Below are positions 20,414-29,770 of a stretch of DNA of 64,000 nt, piece after piece; the stretch's first letter is position 1; every line of letters begins with the position of its first letter. The notes under the pieces are model-generated. The model saw only the letters and a list, made by a program, of their open reading frames with translations, was not told the DNA's origin and ran no database searches. A program made the position numbers and the translations under genes. Source of the stretch: Acidobacteriaceae bacterium KBS 89 (lineage in GTDB: Bacteria > Acidobacteriota > Terriglobia > Terriglobales > Acidobacteriaceae); contig KB906755.1 in NCBI GenBank assembly GCA_000381605.1, positions 1,054,001 through 1,118,000 of the forward strand, given 5' to 3'.

Positions 20414-20905
20414 TTACTTCCCCTTCACCGCAATCACTTCAATCTCAACCAGCGCCCACGGAGCGGCCAACGCCGCCACCTGCATGGCACTTCTTGCCGG
20501 CTTGTTTGGCTGCTCCTTCGTTCCAAAGAATTGTGTATAGGACGCTTGCAGTCCTGGAAAATCCAGCTTGTTATCTTTCGCCGGATCACCCGCCAGAAAC
20601 ACCGTCATCTTTACCACATCTTTCATATCGAGTCCCTGCTCTTTAAGCAGCGCCTGAATTTTGTTCAATGCACTCAGCGCCTGAGTCTTGGTGTCTCCGT
20701 AAACAGCGGCAGTTCCCTTCGCTTCATCGGCGGGCGTCGCCGGCGAAGCCAGCTGCCCGCTCAGATAAAGCGTGTCCCCCGCCCATACTCCATTCGCAAT
20801 CGGCGATTTCTCATTCGGCTGCAGATGCTTAACCACTACCTGAGCCTGCATCGCACATGCGACGGCCATCAAGGCCGTCGCCATCACACCATATTTGATC
20901 TTCAT
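20414..20905 (-). CDS. ridA: Exported RidA (YjgF/YER057c) family protein
   Basis: A 163-residue RidA-fold protein with a 22-residue signal peptide ending M-Q-A-Q, so it acts outside the cytoplasm. RidA proteins hydrolyse reactive imines and enamines formed by amino-acid enzymes; the key arginine is present (R138 in P-A-R-S-A-M-Q-V-A) together with V-E-I-E-V-I-A-V at the end, typical of active members. It begins 25 bases after the stop of the Tat-exported amine oxidase on the same strand, a pairing that makes functional sense because flavin oxidases release imino products. The cytoplasmic family length is about 128 residues; the excess is the signal peptide and a small insertion around 54-66. 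Confidence 0.88.
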   Translation of the reverse strand: MKIKYGVMATALMAVACAMQAQVVVKHLQPNEKSPIANGVWAGDTLYLSGQLASPATPADEAKGTAAVYGDTKTQALSALNKIQALLKEQGLDMKDVVKMTVFLAGDPAKDNKLDFPGLQASYTQFFGTKEQPNKPARSAMQVAALAAPWALVEIEVIAVKGK

Positions 20906-20930
20906 CGCTCTCTACCTCACAAAAAATTTG

Positions 20931-22514
20931 TTAGCCTTGCACAACGTCAGTAACAACACCGGACAGTTTCGCCGCCTTCACTCTGTCAGCAATCATGCCC
21001 ACGGCACGCCGCGCACTCAAGGCCGCGCCCTCCTGCCAACCCACAATGTGACTCGCCGTATCGCCCGCAAAATAAATCGGCCCATCGGCCTGGATGATCG
21101 TGTCATATCCACTCTGCCCACCCCCATAGCTGCGAATCCACGAGCCCTCATTCCAAGGCACTCGGCTCCATCCGCAGAACACAGGATTCTTCAACTCCTT
21201 CCCATGGCCCGGATGGATTTTTTCAATCGACGCGCGCGAAGCCTCAAACTTCTCCGCAAGCGTCATATCGTAAAACCGCGTTCCCAGTTCATCCGTATAA
21301 CCCGAAACCACAATGCCCGTCGGGTGCATCAGTCGCGACGACGGGTACCACACCGGGCTCGGCCCCTGCATCAGATACGAAATCCCGCCATAGATGTTGT
21401 AATCCTGCTCCCAGAATCGCCTGCTCTCCCACGCAAGCTTGTACGCTCCCCCCATCGTGCTCTCATCCACTGCTTTCTTAAATGGCGCCGACAGGTCGTT
21501 CGGAATCTTCTTCATCATCGAAAACGGCAACGCCGCAATACAGTACGAAGCCTCTACCTGCTTCGTCGCGCCGCCCTGCGTATACGACACCCGAACCCCA
21601 TTCGCCGTCTTTCGAATCTCTGTCACCGGCGACTCGTACTGCACAATCGGCCCCAACGTCTTGGCGAACGCATACGGTATCCGGTCCATCCCGCCCACCG
21701 GCTGCATCATCGTCGCCTGCCAGTCGTACGCCTCCTCCACAAACAGGTCATTCCAGAAGTTCTCATCCAGCAAGATGCGCATATCCATCGGCGCTTCATC
21801 CACACCGATCTGCGAACCGGCGCCCGGTGGCGTCTTATACCCCGCCCTCTCCGAGCCCACATACGCGCTCTTTTCGTTCAACGGCCCATAGATCTTCAGA
21901 AACGCCGTCATCCGCTCGCGATCTTCCTTGCTTAGCTCGGCATCCAGCGCCCCATTCGCCACACACTTCGACAGCAACTCCGACACATGGCCCCGCGTAT
22001 CGTTGATCGCCTTTCGTTGCACCACCGGCTTCCCACCATTCGCCGCGTCGTTTTGCAAAAACGTCGACCGCGAAGTATTGACTTCTACCTCCAGCGCAAC
22101 GCCAAGCTCGCGACAATATCCCAGCATCGTCCAGTGCGTGCTCGGCAGGCGCGCTGGCCCCATGTTCTGATAGTTCCCTTCCTCCCAACTGATCACCTGC
22201 TTCGTTCCATCGACGAACTTCACCTTCGTCCCGTTACGCCCCGTCCAGTTGCGTCCACCCGGACGCTCTCGCGCCTCCAGCAGAGTCACGTCGTAACCCA
22301 GCTTTTTCAGCTCATACGCTGAAACCAGCCCTCCGACCCCCCCGCCCAGCACCACCACTTTGATGCCCTTGCCCGAGCCCACAGCCGCCTGAATCGGCGC
22401 CACCTGCTCTCCCTTCATCGGCATCAACCCCAGCGACTGCATCGTCGCAAAGGCAGCACTATAGCCACCAACCTGACCTACACGCATCAAAAAATCGCGG
22501 CGGGAGACACCCAT
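20931..22514 (-). CDS. Tat-exported FAD-dependent amine/L-amino-acid oxidase
   Basis: From the ATG at 22514, with AGGAGAGG upstream, the protein has 527 residues; the frame runs open to 22640 without a ribosome site. It starts with a twin-arginine signal S-R-R-D-F-L-M (4-10). The FAD-binding Rossmann motif is V-V-V-L-G-G-G-V-G-G-L (53-63), followed by E-A-R-E-R-P-G-G-R (about 80-88), the flavin monoamine oxidase signature. Near the C-terminus Y-F-A-G-D-T-A-S-H-I and W-Q-E-G-A is the second FAD motif. Such enzymes oxidise amines or amino acids to imines plus H2O2. Substrate is unknown. RidA follows 25 bases downstream. A close paralogue lies at 49084-50739. Confidence 0.88.
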   Translation of the reverse strand: MGVSRRDFLMRVGQVGGYSAAFATMQSLGLMPMKGEQVAPIQAAVGSGKGIKVVVLGGGVGGLVSAYELKKLGYDVTLLEARERPGGRNWTGRNGTKVKFVDGTKQVISWEEGNYQNMGPARLPSTHWTMLGYCRELGVALEVEVNTSRSTFLQNDAANGGKPVVQRKAINDTRGHVSELLSKCVANGALDAELSKEDRERMTAFLKIYGPLNEKSAYVGSERAGYKTPPGAGSQIGVDEAPMDMRILLDENFWNDLFVEEAYDWQATMMQPVGGMDRIPYAFAKTLGPIVQYESPVTEIRKTANGVRVSYTQGGATKQVEASYCIAALPFSMMKKIPNDLSAPFKKAVDESTMGGAYKLAWESRRFWEQDYNIYGGISYLMQGPSPVWYPSSRLMHPTGIVVSGYTDELGTRFYDMTLAEKFEASRASIEKIHPGHGKELKNPVFCGWSRVPWNEGSWIRSYGGGQSGYDTIIQADGPIYFAGDTASHIVGWQEGAALSARRAVGMIADRVKAAKLSGVVTDVVQG

Positions 22515-22755
22515 GGAAGACACCTCTCCTAAAGGAATTCGATAGCGACAGCACCAACGCGAAAACCCCATTTGCATTGGAAGGAACTGCACTTCCGCAT
22601 ACAGGTATTGCAAGAAATCCTGCATGCCTGAATGTGACAAGGAAATCTGCTCTTTTGAAAAATTATGTTTCTACTCTATCGCAAATTCGAGTTGCGCTGC
22701 ATAAAACAATCATTGCAGGTGACGGACGGCAGACACAGCAAAGACGCATCCGTTA

Positions 22756-22789: not shown

Positions 22790-23998
22790 ATGTCCAGTGT
22801 GCCATTGTCAACGCATCAAGTTAGGGCAAAGGAGTCAACGCAGACCTCCCAAAAAACTGCGGGCGTTCCCTGGTATGTGTGGTGCGGCGCACTTGCTGTC
22901 ACCTCGGCTTCGATAGGAGGGGCATGGGACGTCTCCTGGCACCGTTCGATCGGTCGAGACAGCTTTTGGACACCGGCACACCTGGCGATCCAGGCCTGCG
23001 GGGTCATGGCTGCAGTCATCTGCGGCTATCTGATTCTGGTCAATACCTTCGGACAGTCAGCGAAACTGAAGACCACGTCAGTCAACGTGCTCGGCTTCCG
23101 GGCGCCGCTTGGAGCATTCATCGCTGCGTGGGGTGGTATTGCAATGATCACGTCGGCTCCGTTCGACAACTGGTGGCATGCTGCATACGGACTCGATGTC
23201 AAGATCGTAAGTCCACCACACACACTTTTGATCCTTGGTATGCGCGCAGTATCCGTAGGCATTCTGTTTCTGATTCTGGCGGCGATGAATCGCGCTTCCA
23301 CTGACGGCACGCCGCGCGGTGAGGAGATCTTCAAGAAGCTCCAACGTATCTTCCTTTACGTCGGCGGCCTTATCGTCTCCGGCCAGATGTTTTTCCTGAT
23401 CGAGTACACGTGGGACGTAAAGTTGCACTCGGTGAGTGCCTATATTGCGATGGGTATCGCGCTTCCGCTTGCTTTCGCAATGTTGTCACAGGCATCACGT
23501 TACAAGTGGGCGGCGACCACCGCGGCCGCGGTGTATATGATAATCGCAATTGCGGAGATCCTGATCTTTCCACTTTTTCCAGCGCAACCGAAGCTTGGAC
23601 CGGTCTTCAACCCGGTCACCCATCTAATCCCTGCCAAGTTTCCCATTCTGATTATTGTGCCCGCGATCGCGCTCGATTTGCTGTGGCAAAGGACCCGTGC
23701 CTGGAAGCCGTGGAAAGTCGCACTCGTTTCGGGCTTTCTGTTTGTCGCCGTTCTGACGATCATCGAATGGCCGTTCGCCAGCTTTCTCCTGTCCAAAGCT
23801 TCTGAGAACCGGTTCTTTGGGACGATCTATTTCGACTACAACTCGCGGCCAAATGGATATGACCGCCTGCGGCTTTTCTTTGAGCCGGACAACGGCGCGG
23901 TGCTGTATTGGGGTCTGCTGCGCGCTGCGATCTATGGCTCCATCAGTACCTGGATCGGCTTGAGCTTTGGACGTTGGATGCGGAGTGTACAACGGTGA
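22790..23998 (+). CDS. Multi-pass membrane protein with duplicated D-x2-W-H...P-H motif, unknown
   Basis: A 402-residue protein with roughly ten membrane helices and a soluble N-terminus of about 25 residues. Two similar motifs are visible: D47-x2-W50-H51-x3-G55-x-D57-x4-P62-x-H64 and D126-x2-W129-H130-x3-G134-x-D136-x6-P143-H144, each at a helix end. The paired histidines suggest a metal or haem site; this is inference. The start has TGAGGT upstream. Its stop overlaps the GTG of the next gene (GTGA), so the two are coupled. The downstream His/Met-rich protein suggests copper handling or a copper enzyme assembly role. I recognise no named family. Confidence 0.7.
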   Translation: MSSVPLSTHQVRAKESTQTSQKTAGVPWYVWCGALAVTSASIGGAWDVSWHRSIGRDSFWTPAHLAIQACGVMAAVICGYLILVNTFGQSAKLKTTSVNVLGFRAPLGAFIAAWGGIAMITSAPFDNWWHAAYGLDVKIVSPPHTLLILGMRAVSVGILFLILAAMNRASTDGTPRGEEIFKKLQRIFLYVGGLIVSGQMFFLIEYTWDVKLHSVSAYIAMGIALPLAFAMLSQASRYKWAATTAAAVYMIIAIAEILIFPLFPAQPKLGPVFNPVTHLIPAKFPILIIVPAIALDLLWQRTRAWKPWKVALVSGFLFVAVLTIIEWPFASFLLSKASENRFFGTIYFDYNSRPNGYDRLRLFFEPDNGAVLYWGLLRAAIYGSISTWIGLSFGRWMRSVQR

Positions 23999-25500
23999 AG
24001 GTTTTTTTTACGCCTTTTCGCTTCGTTCTGATCTTCGTGTTCTGCGTTATCACTGCCTCCCAGACGGCGCACGCCCATGTTGGCAGCAAAGATGTCTTTG
24101 AGACGATCAATGCTGGACCCTACAAGCTGTACGTCACTGTCCGCATGCCTAATGTCATCCCCGGCGTAGCGACCGTGGAGGTGCGATCGAGTGGGGCAAA
24201 TGTGAGTGGTATCAACATCACTCCCCTTCCGATCACGGGTGAGGCTTCGAAACATCCTCCTACTTCGGATCCGATGAAACGCTCGTCTGCGGACCCGGCT
24301 TTCTTTACGGGGAGCCTGTGGATGATGGCGTCAGGCTCTTGGGAGGTACGTTTTGAAATCGCTGGAGAGGGTGGAGTGCAGACGGCCTCGGTGCCGGTGC
24401 CTGCAGTCGCTCTCTCGACTCTGAAGATGCAGCGCGGGATGGGGATGATTCTGGGAGTGCTTGGCCTATTCCTGGTCGCAAGTATGGCCGGGATCGTCGC
24501 TGCCGCTGTGCGTGATGCCCGACTTGAGCCGGGCGCAATCGCTTCGCCAAATCGCAGGCGGCGGGCAATTCTCGCGAGCGCAGGGAGCCTGGTCTTTATG
24601 GCTCTGCTGATCTGGGGAGGAGCTACGTGGTGGAATGCTGAGGCCGCCAGCTACTCACTCGACGTCTACCACCCTCTGAAGGTTGATCCAGTGCTCTCGG
24701 GCAATGTACTCGATCTCAACGTACAAGCCTTTCGTACGGAGAGTGACCGACGTGGCCGCTCCAACAACGACTTTCTGCCCGACCACGGTCACCTGATGCA
24801 CCTCTATGCCATCCGTGAGCCGGAGATGGACGCCGTCTTCCACCTGCATCCAGAACTCGCCGGTCCGGGCAACTTCCGCATTTCACTTCCCGCCATGCCT
24901 GCTGGCGACTACACGCTCTATGGCGATGTGGTCCACGCCTCCGGCTTTCCCGAGACGCTCGTCTCAAAGATCACTGTGCCGGCCACGATGGCTGGAGGTG
25001 CCCTCGGTCCTGACGATGCTGCCGCACATCCGCAGCCGCTCAACGCTGGCGCGCTCGGCGACTCCTTCACGCTACCTGATGGCTATGTCATGGTGTGGGA
25101 TCGCCCTGCGACCCTGACCGCAGACACTGGATACACGTTCCGGTTCCACCTGCAGGACGCCAAGGGCGCTCCTGCGGCCGACGTGCAGCCATATATGGGA
25201 ATGGCGGGGCATGCGGCGTTCGTCAAGACGGACGGAACTGTGTTTGCGCATACTCATCCGGAGGGCTCTGCTGCCATGGCCGCTCTGATGTTGGCCAACG
25301 GTAACGATTCTTCCGCTCATGCAGGGATGGAAGGGATGGATATGAGTATGCCGATGCACATGGATCATCATTCTGAGCCGATATCCAATACCGTCGAGTT
25401 CCCTTATGGGTTTCCGTCTGCTGGGCGATATCGGATCTTTGTCCAGATGAAGCATGGGACAACCATCGAGACGGGGACCTTTGACGCAGTGATCCAGTAA
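23995..25500 (+). CDS. Membrane-anchored His/Met-rich protein with FixH/YtkA-like domains, probable copper binding
   Basis: The GTG at 23995 overlaps the previous stop by 4 bases and gives 501 residues; GGAG lies upstream. A signal peptide ends T-A-H-A, and cleavage at A-H-A would leave His as the first mature residue. A beta-sandwich (about 28-125) precedes a membrane helix (about 145-168) and another near 185-205. The outer part has two parallel His-rich repeats: D-H-G-H-L-M-H-L with V-F-H-L-H-P-E, and M-G-M-A-G-H-A-A-F-V with V-F-A-H-T-H-P-E. A Met/His tail HAGMEGMDMSMPMHMDHH spans 442-459, as in copper-trafficking proteins. The family is uncharacterised as far as I know; the copper assignment is inferred. 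Confidence 0.72.
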   Translation: MKVFFTPFRFVLIFVFCVITASQTAHAHVGSKDVFETINAGPYKLYVTVRMPNVIPGVATVEVRSSGANVSGINITPLPITGEASKHPPTSDPMKRSSADPAFFTGSLWMMASGSWEVRFEIAGEGGVQTASVPVPAVALSTLKMQRGMGMILGVLGLFLVASMAGIVAAAVRDARLEPGAIASPNRRRRAILASAGSLVFMALLIWGGATWWNAEAASYSLDVYHPLKVDPVLSGNVLDLNVQAFRTESDRRGRSNNDFLPDHGHLMHLYAIREPEMDAVFHLHPELAGPGNFRISLPAMPAGDYTLYGDVVHASGFPETLVSKITVPATMAGGALGPDDAAAHPQPLNAGALGDSFTLPDGYVMVWDRPATLTADTGYTFRFHLQDAKGAPAADVQPYMGMAGHAAFVKTDGTVFAHTHPEGSAAMAALMLANGNDSSAHAGMEGMDMSMPMHMDHHSEPISNTVEFPYGFPSAGRYRIFVQMKHGTTIETGTFDAVIQ

Positions 25501-26045: not shown

Positions 26046-29000
26046 CTAGAACTTCACGCTAGCCCCCAGCCAGATGGTTCGGTTGCCGGGATCCGGACCG
26101 AAGAAACCACCCGGTGAGGCTGTACCGGTGATTACTCCAAAATTATTGTTGGTGCCTGTAGAACATAGTCCTCCGCTACCACCAACTGGACCGGGAACCG
26201 CAGCATTACCGGGACATGTGACATTCGGGTTAGCGAAGTGGGGCGTGTTGGTCAAACTGAACGCATCGGCCCGTAACTGCAGCGTGGCGTACTCCTTGAT
26301 TTTGAAGTCGCGGATCACGCTCAGGTTCAAGCTGAAGTATCCCGGACCGATGAATTGATTGCGGCCGGTGTTTCCATAATGTGCGGTCGAAGCACTGGTT
26401 ATCAGGGGTGCGGCAAAGGCGCTCGCGTCGAAGAAGTGACAGCTGAGGTCGGTCTGGCCACAGGTTTGCCCGGTGCGCAGCGGTCTCCCCTTCACCTTGT
26501 GGTAGGTATTGACGAGGTCGGCCGTTTGCCCGGAACCATTGGCGTTGAGGTTGCCTCCCGAGCCGACGGTAAACGGCACACCACTTAGAGCGCTCAGCAG
26601 TGGGTTGATCATCCAGCCGCCGAGAATCTTGCCGCCAACCCCTGTGGTCACCCAGCGTTGTCCACTGCCGAAGGGCGATTGAAACACGCCATAGACCACG
26701 AAGTTCTGGGCACGGTTGTAGCTAGCCAGTCCTCGGTTCTTCGCCCAATAGGTTGGGTACGGAAACGAGAGCGAGCTGAGGTCTTCGTTGTCTTCGTAGT
26801 TGATCGCCTTCGACCACGTGTAGACGACGCCAGCCATAGAGTTGTTCGCCCACCGATGTGTGACCGTGGTCTGCAGGGAGTTGTAGTAGTTGTTTTTGAA
26901 AGGAATCAATTGGTTGATTGTTCCGGTGTAGTTCTTGCCGTAGGCCTGGCTGAGAAGTCCACCTGCACTTCCGGTGCCGGGGAGCGAAGCGTTGGCGTTC
27001 ATGTTGACAAGAGGCCGAACAGCCATCGTGCCTACGTAACCGGCCTGGAAGACAAGCCAGCCCATATCCTGCTGAACCATGAGGTTGTACGAGTTGATGT
27101 ATCCGCGCCGGAACGGGTTAGGGATTGTCGTCGTGCTGGCGCTTGTGGGAAGCGGAATGACGCCGGTGCTGAGATCAGGAAGCGGCAGCAGAGAGATGCC
27201 GGTGGGGAGTGTGGGTAAGGCTCCTCCGGCCAGTCCGCTACCGTTCAGGCCGGTCAGGCTCGCAGCGGGAATGTAATCCGCGGAGTTCGAGGGGGCGTTG
27301 GTATCAAGGATCACGGCCGGGTAGGCGTTACGGAAGTAGCGCCAGTTGTTCGGATCCGCGCTCATGCCGTAGCCTGCACGAACCACAATCGACGGGGTGA
27401 CACGATAGCTGGCACCAAATCGCCCAAGGAACTGCCCGTGTCCGACATCGATGCCGTCATTCTCTGGAACGTTTCCGTAGCCGCCAATCAGAACGTTGCC
27501 CGTGCTCAGATTGAGATAGCGAAGCCCCTTGTCGTGGTTGCTATATCCGAAGGGGTAGTACTCCCATCGAACACCCACGTTGAGCGTCAAGTTGGGGGTC
27601 GCCTGCCATTGGTCGCGCACATACCATGACCACTGCGTCCAACGGAGCGCATTTGGGTTGAAGAGCGCTCTGGCTTTCCCGGTCAGATCCGGAAGACCAA
27701 ACATGAAATCGGCCCAGGAGTTGAACCAGGTTGGGGTCGAGCCTTGCTGAGAGGTGACGAAGCCGTTGAACGCGAATGCGCCTCGCGGCTGCTGGAAGGT
27801 GCCACCCTGCGGCTGGAAGTGGTTGATCTGCGCGTGGTTCCACTCGATACCGCCGCGGAAGCTATGCCTTCCTTTTATCCAGCTGAGGTTAGCGCCGGTG
27901 ACGAACTGGTTGTCGCGGAAGAGGAACGGATTGGCTGGTTGAGCATTGCCCAGATTCGCCTGGTTGTTCGGAATGGTGCTGCCCGGCGCCGCCTGGCCGG
28001 TGGGAAAGATGAAACCGGGATAGCCATAGTAGAGGGACGGGTCACCCGGGGCGCCGGCGTTGTTGGTTCCAGGGATGCCCAGGTTGGTGAGCCCGTTTGC
28101 AGAGACGAGATCGAAGGTCGACCCCAGCCGTTGGCGGTTGTAGCCGAAGTTCCAATCCAGCAGCAACTGGGGACTGAACGAGTGGGTTGCACCCAGACCA
28201 ACGCTCTGAACCCGGCCGGGAGCGTTGCCGAGTTGTCCTCCATTGGTTGCATCCCCAATTGCAGCTCCCAGAAGAGGCGGATCGTACACAAGAGTGTTTG
28301 AAATGCTGTACCGGCCAAAGAGGGTCGTTTTCTGGCTCGGAACATAGTTGATCTTGACATCGAAGTCGTTGCGGTTGAACAGCGCCGTCCCGTTACCGGT
28401 CCAGTTGTTCAAGCCGTTGGTGGTGGTGAATTCCTGCGCGATGTTCGGCTGAAGCAATTTGATCATCGCGACGGTCGCAGGATCAAAGCGGCTCGGGCAG
28501 ATGGTATTCAACACGCCATTGCAGGAGACCTGCTTTTTGTTAGCGCCGTGAATGTCTCCAGTGGCGGGGTCGTAGATGATAGGGTTTCCTGGCAGACCGC
28601 GGAAGTCTCCCGCGGCCATTGCGGCTGTCGGCAGTGTGCGGGTATCGGGTCCGGCGAGCTGGCGCTGGGTTGTGCGCTCGAAATCGGTGAAGAAGAAGAG
28701 TTTGTCCTTGATGATGGGACCGCCGACGTAGCCACCGTACTGGTTCTGGTTATTTCTGTTCTTCTTCGGGAAGAGGACTGGGTCGGTTTGGAAGTAGTTG
28801 CGCGCGGCGAAGTTCTGGTCCGTACGGAACCAGTTGGCGCCACCGTGGAATCTGTTGGTGCCGGACTTAATCTGCACGTTGACTGCGGCGCCGCCAGCCA
28901 TGCCCTGCTCGGCATCGAAGGAGTTGGTTACGACGTTGACATTCTCAATGGCGTCGGCGGGCGGGACATAAGCGACGTTGGCGGGCAGCCAGGAATACGA

Positions 29001-29654
29001 GTCCTGGGCGCCGTCGATTCGAGTGTTGACCCCCTGATTCGACTGTCCGTTTACGTTGACGTTTATTGAGCGCTGCGGATTGCCGGCAAGTGAATTGGTT
29101 TCGGCGGTCAATCCTGTACCAGGTACGGTCTTCAAAAGCGACTGGAAGTTTCGCCCCTGGGAACCCATGGTCGGCAGATTATCGACCTGCTGGGCGGTAA
29201 TTTCGGTATGGACGTCGGCCTTGTCGGTTTGGAGTAGCGGGGCTTCGGTGGTAACGATGATGTCTTGTGCCGCAGACCCTACCTTGAGTTCTGCGTTCAC
29301 TCGGGCGACTTCATTCGCGCGCACAAGGACGCCTGGGGTTTCCTGTTTGGAGAAACCACTCGCGATGACAGTGACTTTGTATGTGCCCGGCAAAAGGGCT
29401 GAGAGCCGATAGATGCCGCTGGAGTCAACGGTCGCGGTCTGGGTAACGCCGGTCTGAACTTCTGACGCGGTGATCTGAGCACCGGCGACAACGGCGCCGC
29501 TGGAATCAGTCACTGTGCCGGTCAGTGTGCCGTAGAGCACCTGCGCTCCTATCGTGGGCACGAGGCATAGACCGACGCAGACCACGATTGCAAAAATGAA
29601 TCCCTTCGACACTGCGTGAACCACACGGCGAACTGTGATGTTGATCTGCGTCAT
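26046..29654 (-). CDS. TonB-dependent receptor 1 with carboxypeptidase-regulatory-like domain
   Basis: From the ATG at 29654, preceded by GGAGGAG, the protein has 1202 residues. A signal peptide (about 10-36, ending I-G-A-Q) leads to a carboxypeptidase-regulatory-like beta domain (about 40-125; G-T-V-T-D-S-S-G-A-V-V-A-G-A), then a TonB plug (about 135-260; L-P-T-M-G-S-Q-G-R-N-F-Q) and a long outer-membrane beta-barrel ending in S-V-K-F, with terminal Phe. This Oar-like architecture is expanded in Acidobacteriota and usually imports glycan or peptide breakdown products. No enzyme gene is adjacent, so the substrate is unknown. A sigma-70-like promoter lies at 29771-29798 and a strong terminator follows. 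Confidence 0.9.
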   Translation of the reverse strand: MTQINITVRRVVHAVSKGFIFAIVVCVGLCLVPTIGAQVLYGTLTGTVTDSSGAVVAGAQITASEVQTGVTQTATVDSSGIYRLSALLPGTYKVTVIASGFSKQETPGVLVRANEVARVNAELKVGSAAQDIIVTTEAPLLQTDKADVHTEITAQQVDNLPTMGSQGRNFQSLLKTVPGTGLTAETNSLAGNPQRSINVNVNGQSNQGVNTRIDGAQDSYSWLPANVAYVPPADAIENVNVVTNSFDAEQGMAGGAAVNVQIKSGTNRFHGGANWFRTDQNFAARNYFQTDPVLFPKKNRNNQNQYGGYVGGPIIKDKLFFFTDFERTTQRQLAGPDTRTLPTAAMAAGDFRGLPGNPIIYDPATGDIHGANKKQVSCNGVLNTICPSRFDPATVAMIKLLQPNIAQEFTTTNGLNNWTGNGTALFNRNDFDVKINYVPSQKTTLFGRYSISNTLVYDPPLLGAAIGDATNGGQLGNAPGRVQSVGLGATHSFSPQLLLDWNFGYNRQRLGSTFDLVSANGLTNLGIPGTNNAGAPGDPSLYYGYPGFIFPTGQAAPGSTIPNNQANLGNAQPANPFLFRDNQFVTGANLSWIKGRHSFRGGIEWNHAQINHFQPQGGTFQQPRGAFAFNGFVTSQQGSTPTWFNSWADFMFGLPDLTGKARALFNPNALRWTQWSWYVRDQWQATPNLTLNVGVRWEYYPFGYSNHDKGLRYLNLSTGNVLIGGYGNVPENDGIDVGHGQFLGRFGASYRVTPSIVVRAGYGMSADPNNWRYFRNAYPAVILDTNAPSNSADYIPAASLTGLNGSGLAGGALPTLPTGISLLPLPDLSTGVIPLPTSASTTTIPNPFRRGYINSYNLMVQQDMGWLVFQAGYVGTMAVRPLVNMNANASLPGTGSAGGLLSQAYGKNYTGTINQLIPFKNNYYNSLQTTVTHRWANNSMAGVVYTWSKAINYEDNEDLSSLSFPYPTYWAKNRGLASYNRAQNFVVYGVFQSPFGSGQRWVTTGVGGKILGGWMINPLLSALSGVPFTVGSGGNLNANGSGQTADLVNTYHKVKGRPLRTGQTCGQTDLSCHFFDASAFAAPLITSASTAHYGNTGRNQFIGPGYFSLNLSVIRDFKIKEYATLQLRADAFSLTNTPHFANPNVTCPGNAAVPGPVGGSGGLCSTGTNNNFGVITGTASPGGFFGPDPGNRTIWLGASVKF

Positions 29655-29770
29655 AACTCCTCCAGTCGTACAAAAACCCAAGTCTTGAGTCATTCGGCGT
29701 TGCCGTCTCAGGGATGAATTTCCTAAGGAGTGCCGCCGTGTTCGAAGCTTATTTTCTATGCGTCGCGAAC

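Follow-up and report, generated by a model that had tools for sequence, protein, structure and literature searches.

An apparently overlooked gene pair of Acidobacteriota encodes a widespread relative of copper membrane monooxygenase C and A subunits

What kind of envelope system is encoded by the two overlapping genes at positions 22,790 to 25,500 of a 64,000-nucleotide stretch (the window) of the Acidobacteriaceae bacterium KBS 89 genome (contig KB906755.1, positions 1,054,001 to 1,118,000)? An earlier, sequence-only reading described a roughly ten-helix membrane protein (protein 1) with a duplicated histidine motif, coupled by a four-base GTGA overlap to an exported, histidine-rich protein (protein 2); it proposed a copper role and knew of no named system of this makeup. 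The overlap is confirmed at 23995-23998, and copper remains the best reading of the pair. The claim of no known counterpart gives way, as the pair combines putative CuC and CuD sites of PmoC/AmoC with a PmoA-like half and an xmoCAB-like gene order. Protein 1 is a genuine relative of the C and A subunits of copper membrane monooxygenases (CuMMOs), one that is widespread and has apparently been overlooked.

The AlphaFold2 model of protein 1 contains ten helices of at least 13 residues and one helix of five, in agreement with the earlier count, and the histidine pairs then noted, H51/H64 and H130/H144, belong to the full motifs D47-x3-H51-x12-H64 and D126-x3-H130-x13-H144. Among 135 relatives, drawn from 92 loci and 43 proteins with identities as low as 23%, H64, D126, H130, D136, and H144 are identical in all 135; D47, H51, and D57 are identical in 134, with one gap and zero substitutions. 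The other histidines of protein 1 (H9, H213, and H278) are variable. D47, H51, R56, D57, H64, D126, H130, D136, and H144 are among the invariant columns in 20 homologues of at least 30% identity, the same nine are invariant in a wider set of 35 homologues down to 23% identity, and six actinobacterial plasmid proteins aligned with P0280-P0284 show no change at the ligand positions either. Loss of the paired histidines, raised earlier as a possible objection, is not seen in the homologues; they are kept wherever the alignment has letters.

In particulate methane monooxygenase (pMMO), CuC is bound by Asp156/His160/His173 and CuD by Asn227/His231/His245, as given in part of PMC12576850. The ligand spacings of protein 1, 4 and 13 at the C-site and 4 and 14 at the D-site, equal those of PmoC. 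D47, H51, and H64 reproduce the Asp-x3-His-x12-His C-site of a CuMMO C subunit; at the D-site, H130, H144, and their spacing agree with bacterial CuMMOs, and Asp126 replaces Asn in all 135 relatives. From the alignments, the duplicated motif appears to correspond to the CuC and CuD sites of PmoC/AmoC.

Profile comparisons extend the resemblance beyond the ligands. Pfam searches with the single sequences of either protein returned nothing useful, and Pfam and NCBIfam together, searched with single sequences and alignments, gave nothing above cut-off and some weak matches to unrelated families. Residues 28-162 of protein 1 weakly align to the NCBIfam methane/ammonia monooxygenase C subunit model (E 0.0079), at 15.7 bits against a cut-off of 280.6 bits. 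At the family level, 13 of 20 members have a Pfam AmoC match at E <= 10 (best 1.7e-4), and at E <= 1 two NCBIfam AmoC/PmoC models recognize 13 and 11 of them. When the family profile was searched against 177,635 PDB sequences, five were found at E <= 10, all AmoC/PmoC (best 2.3e-4); with distant members added there were again five, all AmoC/PmoC (best E 2.4e-5). In both searches the alignments span the C-site only. Against an alignment of five PmoC/AmoC sequences, hhalign gives E 2.3e-5 and a probability of 76% with both motifs in register (E 5.6e-4 and 30% with a narrower family alignment); all six site residues are in register, and the acids D57/D146 and D136/E217 match (L152 AmoC numbering). 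Residues 20-172 score 42.4 (E 7.5e-6) against a broader PmoC alignment, whereas 200 column permutations of that alignment reach a maximum of 23.9 and 42 unrelated membrane proteins, a decoy set that is small and made of single sequences, reach 24.2; each of five single PmoC sequences beats all 42 decoys. We regard the homology of the C half to PmoC/AmoC as very probable.

The C-terminal half of protein 1 appears to have the PmoA/AmoA fold. PmoA and AmoA occupy the top 12 rows among the structural matches listed, and comparison with a PmoA profile, built from only three PmoA sequences, scores 32.1 against a permutation maximum of 24.7. Homology of this A half to PmoA/AmoA is likely, with weaker support than for the C half. 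A viral fold library comparison gave nothing above probability 0.44 among 50 matches listed, and no AmoC was found in phage records.

The pair invites comparison with CuMMOs (pMMO, ammonia monooxygenase, and hydrocarbon monooxygenase, encoded by xmoCAB). Shared traits are the C-site D/H/H and D-site H/H residues with identical spacing and matching nearby residues, the PmoA-like second half of protein 1, and the gene order C-A-B. Unlike CuMMOs, C and A are fused in one polypeptide, the D-site has Asp for Asn, the partner is not detectably homologous to PmoB and lacks the CuB HxH, and family scores lie below the curated cut-offs, with neither PF04896 nor TIGR03078 passed. About 90 residues ahead of the C-site in PmoC are missing from protein 1, and two genes stand in place of separate xmoC, xmoA, and xmoB. 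We do not class the pair as a CuMMO because it lacks a PmoB homologue with CuB, departs from the three-gene plan, and falls short of the curated cut-offs. PF04896 exceeds its cut-off in 0 of 41 related genomes (four matches lie below it, all at the protein 1 gene) and PF02461 has no match in 61 genomes, so the pair is apparently not accompanied by a normal CuMMO there. Divergent archaeal CuMMOs of Angelarchaeales and Syntropharchaeia are likewise deep branches recognized through conserved C-site residues (parts of PMC9038741 and PMC12533140), but their A, B, and C subunits are separate proteins and their CuB His is reported as conserved. Neither "fused" nor "fusion" occurs in the main text of PMC12533140. 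The literature searched contained no description of a fused C-A protein or of the gene pair, which may be in print elsewhere.

Protein 2 reads ...QTAHA|H28 at its N-terminus, and this putative signal peptide ending before a histidine is as first described; His28 is present in 88/88 loci and 120/120 close homologues. PmoB is exported and has an N-terminal His, a two-helix hairpin, and flanking beta domains, a layout that protein 2 shares. As a PmoB homologue, protein 2 was considered and rejected (whole-protein hhalign score of 17.8 against a permutation maximum of 27.1); PmoB is also not among the 50 matches listed for the protein 2 model in either structural comparison, which excludes nothing. 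Of the CuB His brace of a B subunit, His28 is present, no HxH occurs in residues 28-137, and similarity to PmoB was not detected; E117 and R119 occupy the place of the PmoB HxH (positioned by eye). Weak SodC matches (E 0.097-0.18) were taken as chance.

The copper protein CrdA is the nearest structure to the first domain, in a tie with a carbohydrate-binding module, and 3 of 15 family members have a YtkA match. Helicobacter pylori CrdA (PDB 9ll2, 9ll4) has a Met-rich site without His, according to part of PMC9182242; unlike it, protein 2 has the invariant His28 and two further beta domains. The CopC-like interpretation proposed earlier suits part of protein 2 and not the rest. Two His repeats do exist, as V-F-H-L-H-P-E (281-287) and V-F-A-H-T-H-P-E, with unequal spacing rather than a common V-F-x-H-x-H-P-E pattern. 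The supposed Met/His tail (442-459) is instead a low-confidence internal loop followed by about 40 residues, and it is poorly conserved: across the 88, the M445 column has 36 Met and 46 gaps, and the H459 column has 8 His and 55 gaps.

The expected co-occurrence of the two genes is borne out. In 88 of 92 loci, gene 1 is followed within 381 nt by the start of a gene 2 relative in the same orientation; the set is not de-duplicated and includes some loci that are partial at contig ends. Among the other four, L115 meets a contig end and L086, L089, and L118 lack the gene. The four-base overlap recurs in 13 of 22 representative loci. No third operon gene recurs in 80 loci plus the window with a simple gene finder, which recovered gene 1 as its own cluster in 59/81 loci and gene 2 in 71/81 and can therefore miss genes. 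Features of the pair are collected in Table 1.

Table 1. Coordinates of the gene pair and its features in the window.
Feature	Position	Strand	Basis or remark
Gene 1, ATG start, 402 aa	22790..23998	+	polytopic membrane protein, fused C-like and A-like CuMMO homologue
PmoC/AmoC-like core, residues 20-172, four helices	22847..23305	+	hhalign and PDB profile search
C-site motif D47-x3-H51-x4-R56-D57-x6-H64	22928..22981	+	alignment conservation; spacing as in PmoC
D-site motif D126-x3-H130-x5-D136-x7-H144	23165..23221	+	alignment conservation; spacing as in PmoC, Asp replaces Asn
PmoA/AmoA-like domain, residues 173-402	23306..23995	+	
GTGA start-stop overlap coupling gene 1 and gene 2	23995..23998	+	
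Gene 2, GTG start, 501 aa	23995..25500	+	exported, membrane-anchored, PmoB-like layout
Protein 2 signal peptide, residues 1-27, ends A-H-A	23995..24075	+	read from sequence, not predictor-based
Presumed mature N-terminal His28 of protein 2	24076..24078	+	conserved in relatives
Protein 2 first beta-sandwich domain, residues 31-137, CrdA-like, no HxH	24085..24405	+	
Protein 2 two-helix membrane hairpin, residues 147-174 and 185-221	24433..24657	+	structure model
Protein 2 second beta domain, H264/H266/H269/H283/H285 (HGHLMH...HLHPE)	24679..24978	+	
Protein 2 third beta domain, H406/H419/H421 (GHAAF...FAHTHPE)	25012..25497	+	
Protein 2 Met/His-rich loop, residues 442-459	25318..25371	+	poorly conserved

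Searches that scored 8,000 candidates for each protein at a threshold of E <= 0.001 recover at least 7,683 relatives of protein 1 and at least 3,043 of protein 2. The 120 best relatives of protein 1 have no Pfam domain and either no name or the name "hypothetical"; among the 120 best for protein 2, one carries PF00596 and nine are named as a TRAP transporter subunit, labels that we take as annotation noise. At least 553 of 592 candidate stretches from GTDB contigs encode a relative, and most of the best 80, which were retained, are labelled Acidobacteriota. Matches occur in 16 of 61 related genomes (own genome included) and in 23 of 396 genomes sampled from the phylum, with multiple copies in some, such as G018 and Acidobacteriales bacterium 59-55 (three loci). 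Cultured soil strains with the pair include Terriglobus roseus DSM 18391 (L078) and Edaphobacter lichenicola (L069, L070, and L087). Relatives are also seen in metagenome-assembled genomes labelled Acidimicrobiia, Myxococcales, and Rhodanobacteraceae (L123, L145, L079, L086), labels that may reflect misbinning or gene transfer. One gene 1 relative (L006, genome G032) contains an in-frame TAG, and an in-frame stop breaks one gene 2 relative (L013, G031) in two; some of the copies may therefore be in decay.

Distant homologues of protein 1 are found in eight actinobacterial plasmid records, from which seven loci were retrieved (L157-L163). Six have products of 475-616 aa; L159 seems incomplete. 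Five of the products are one-chain proteins of about 480 aa that carry an additional C-terminal domain starting A-H-D-P-G-Q-G, and that of L162 is 616 aa; compared with the first domain of protein 2, the additional domain scores 21.3 against a permutation maximum of 22.9. Copper genes surround four of the loci: a multicopper oxidase and a cupredoxin at L157; heavy-metal P-type ATPases, a metal-sensitive regulator, and a four-helix copper-binding protein at L160; CopC at L162; and a cupredoxin and a heavy-metal ATPase at L163. L158 and L161 neighbor BlaI/MecI/CopY-type regulators, which are not necessarily metal-related, and L159 has no copper genes or such regulators in its surroundings. On plasmid pMYCCH.01 of Mycolicibacterium chubuense NBB4, a canonical CuMMO-type C-A-B set and a distant protein 1 relative occur together (L161, L156).

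We tentatively favor a copper-binding membrane complex that is homologous to the CuMMO core and functions as an oxygenase. Starting from the computed homology of the C half, the ligand conservation, and the gene pair, we infer copper as the metal, together with topology, assembly, catalysis, and substrate: protein 1, as a fused C-like and A-like subunit, would bind copper at a C/D site close to the periplasmic face; protein 2, a periplasmic partner anchored by two helices and replacing PmoB, would probably collect or deliver copper through its N-terminal His and HxH motifs; and O2 would be activated at the C/D copper to oxygenate a small membrane-soluble substrate. According to part of PMC12576850, methanotrophs share a conserved CuC and oxidize methane independently of CuB, which suits a complex without CuB. 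Given that report, the loss of CuB is not decisive between an oxygenase and copper handling, and the latter reading, itself quite possible, stands close to the former. In it, the CuMMO-like fold serves to bind, move, or oxidize copper and not to act on a substrate; copper from the periplasm would be taken up by protein 2 and handed to the C/D sites of protein 1, in a division of labor like that between the CopC and CopD domains of B. subtilis YcnJ, and CuMMOs would share an ancestor with a copper-handling protein. YcnJ, a copper importer that unites CopC, a CopD domain in the membrane, and YtkA (part of PMC13344008), is a precedent for the cooperation of an exported copper-binding domain with a polytopic membrane region; the CrdA-like first domain, the YtkA matches, the copper genes beside the four plasmid loci, and the absence of a recurrent third gene by the simple gene finder point the same way. 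Metal islands are common on plasmids, however, so the actinobacterial context is biased, and a crude motif scan of 80 mostly acidobacterial loci finds a copper-type P-ATPase in one and the multicopper-oxidase motif in none. CopD is not among the families that the 20 members match at E <= 10, the sites of protein 1 match those of PmoC, and a PmoA-like domain is not obviously required for copper transfer. For the oxygenase, PQQ alcohol dehydrogenase exceeds its cut-off in 2 of 16 pair holders versus 15 of 45 other genomes, a lack of association that lends no support to a methanotroph-like pathway.

Two further explanations are improbable. A copper-independent complex (for example zinc-binding, sensing, or structural) would keep the fold with a different metal at its ligands; zinc can occupy D/H/H sites, and Asp takes the place of the D-site Asn in all relatives, but some actinobacterial neighborhoods are rich in copper genes and the nearest named folds include copper proteins. 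Less probable still is convergence, by which the internal D-x3-H-x12/13-H repeat of an unrelated membrane protein imitates the PmoC sites. Low identity, unreached curated cut-offs, weak Foldseek E-values, and the lack of a match to the Pfam PmoA model would fit such mimicry; against it stand two sites that agree exactly in spacing and also in nearby residues (R56-D57, T-P-x-H, D136, P142), C-half profile scores that neither the 200 permutations nor the 42 decoys reach, and the separate PmoA match of the C-terminal half. In its boldest form the oxygenase proposal is unlikely: two polypeptides, a CA fusion and an unrelated B, would make up a functional copper monooxygenase that can do without CuB and is known from thousands of sequences, mainly acidobacterial among those with a named source and distantly actinobacterial; it would act on a small substrate and be kin by descent to copper-handling proteins from which CuMMOs themselves may have come.

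CuMMOs start methane oxidation and nitrification, and there is a long-standing dispute over whether their active copper lies at B, C, or D. Retaining the C and D sites but neither CuB nor the three-gene plan, so large a family offers nature's own test of what is indispensable. It would also supply CuMMOs with a deep outgroup and suggest that they may have originated in copper handling; an important enzyme group may contain a large branch that has been overlooked. Acidobacteriota are common in soils, and the pair would add a further complex to this phylum.

Finally, the neighbors of the pair are otherwise variable. The commonest other cluster is of the outer membrane receptor type (20 of 81 loci), represented in the window by a carboxypeptidase-regulatory-like outer membrane beta-barrel protein (26046-29693, minus strand); its recurrence perhaps merely reflects the abundance of such genes in Acidobacteriota. 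Upstream and divergent lie a RidA-type gene (PF01042) and a flavin amine oxidase (PF01593) (20414-22640, minus strand), and the amine oxidase cluster adjoins the pair in 4 of 81 loci (the window, L069, L070, and L087).
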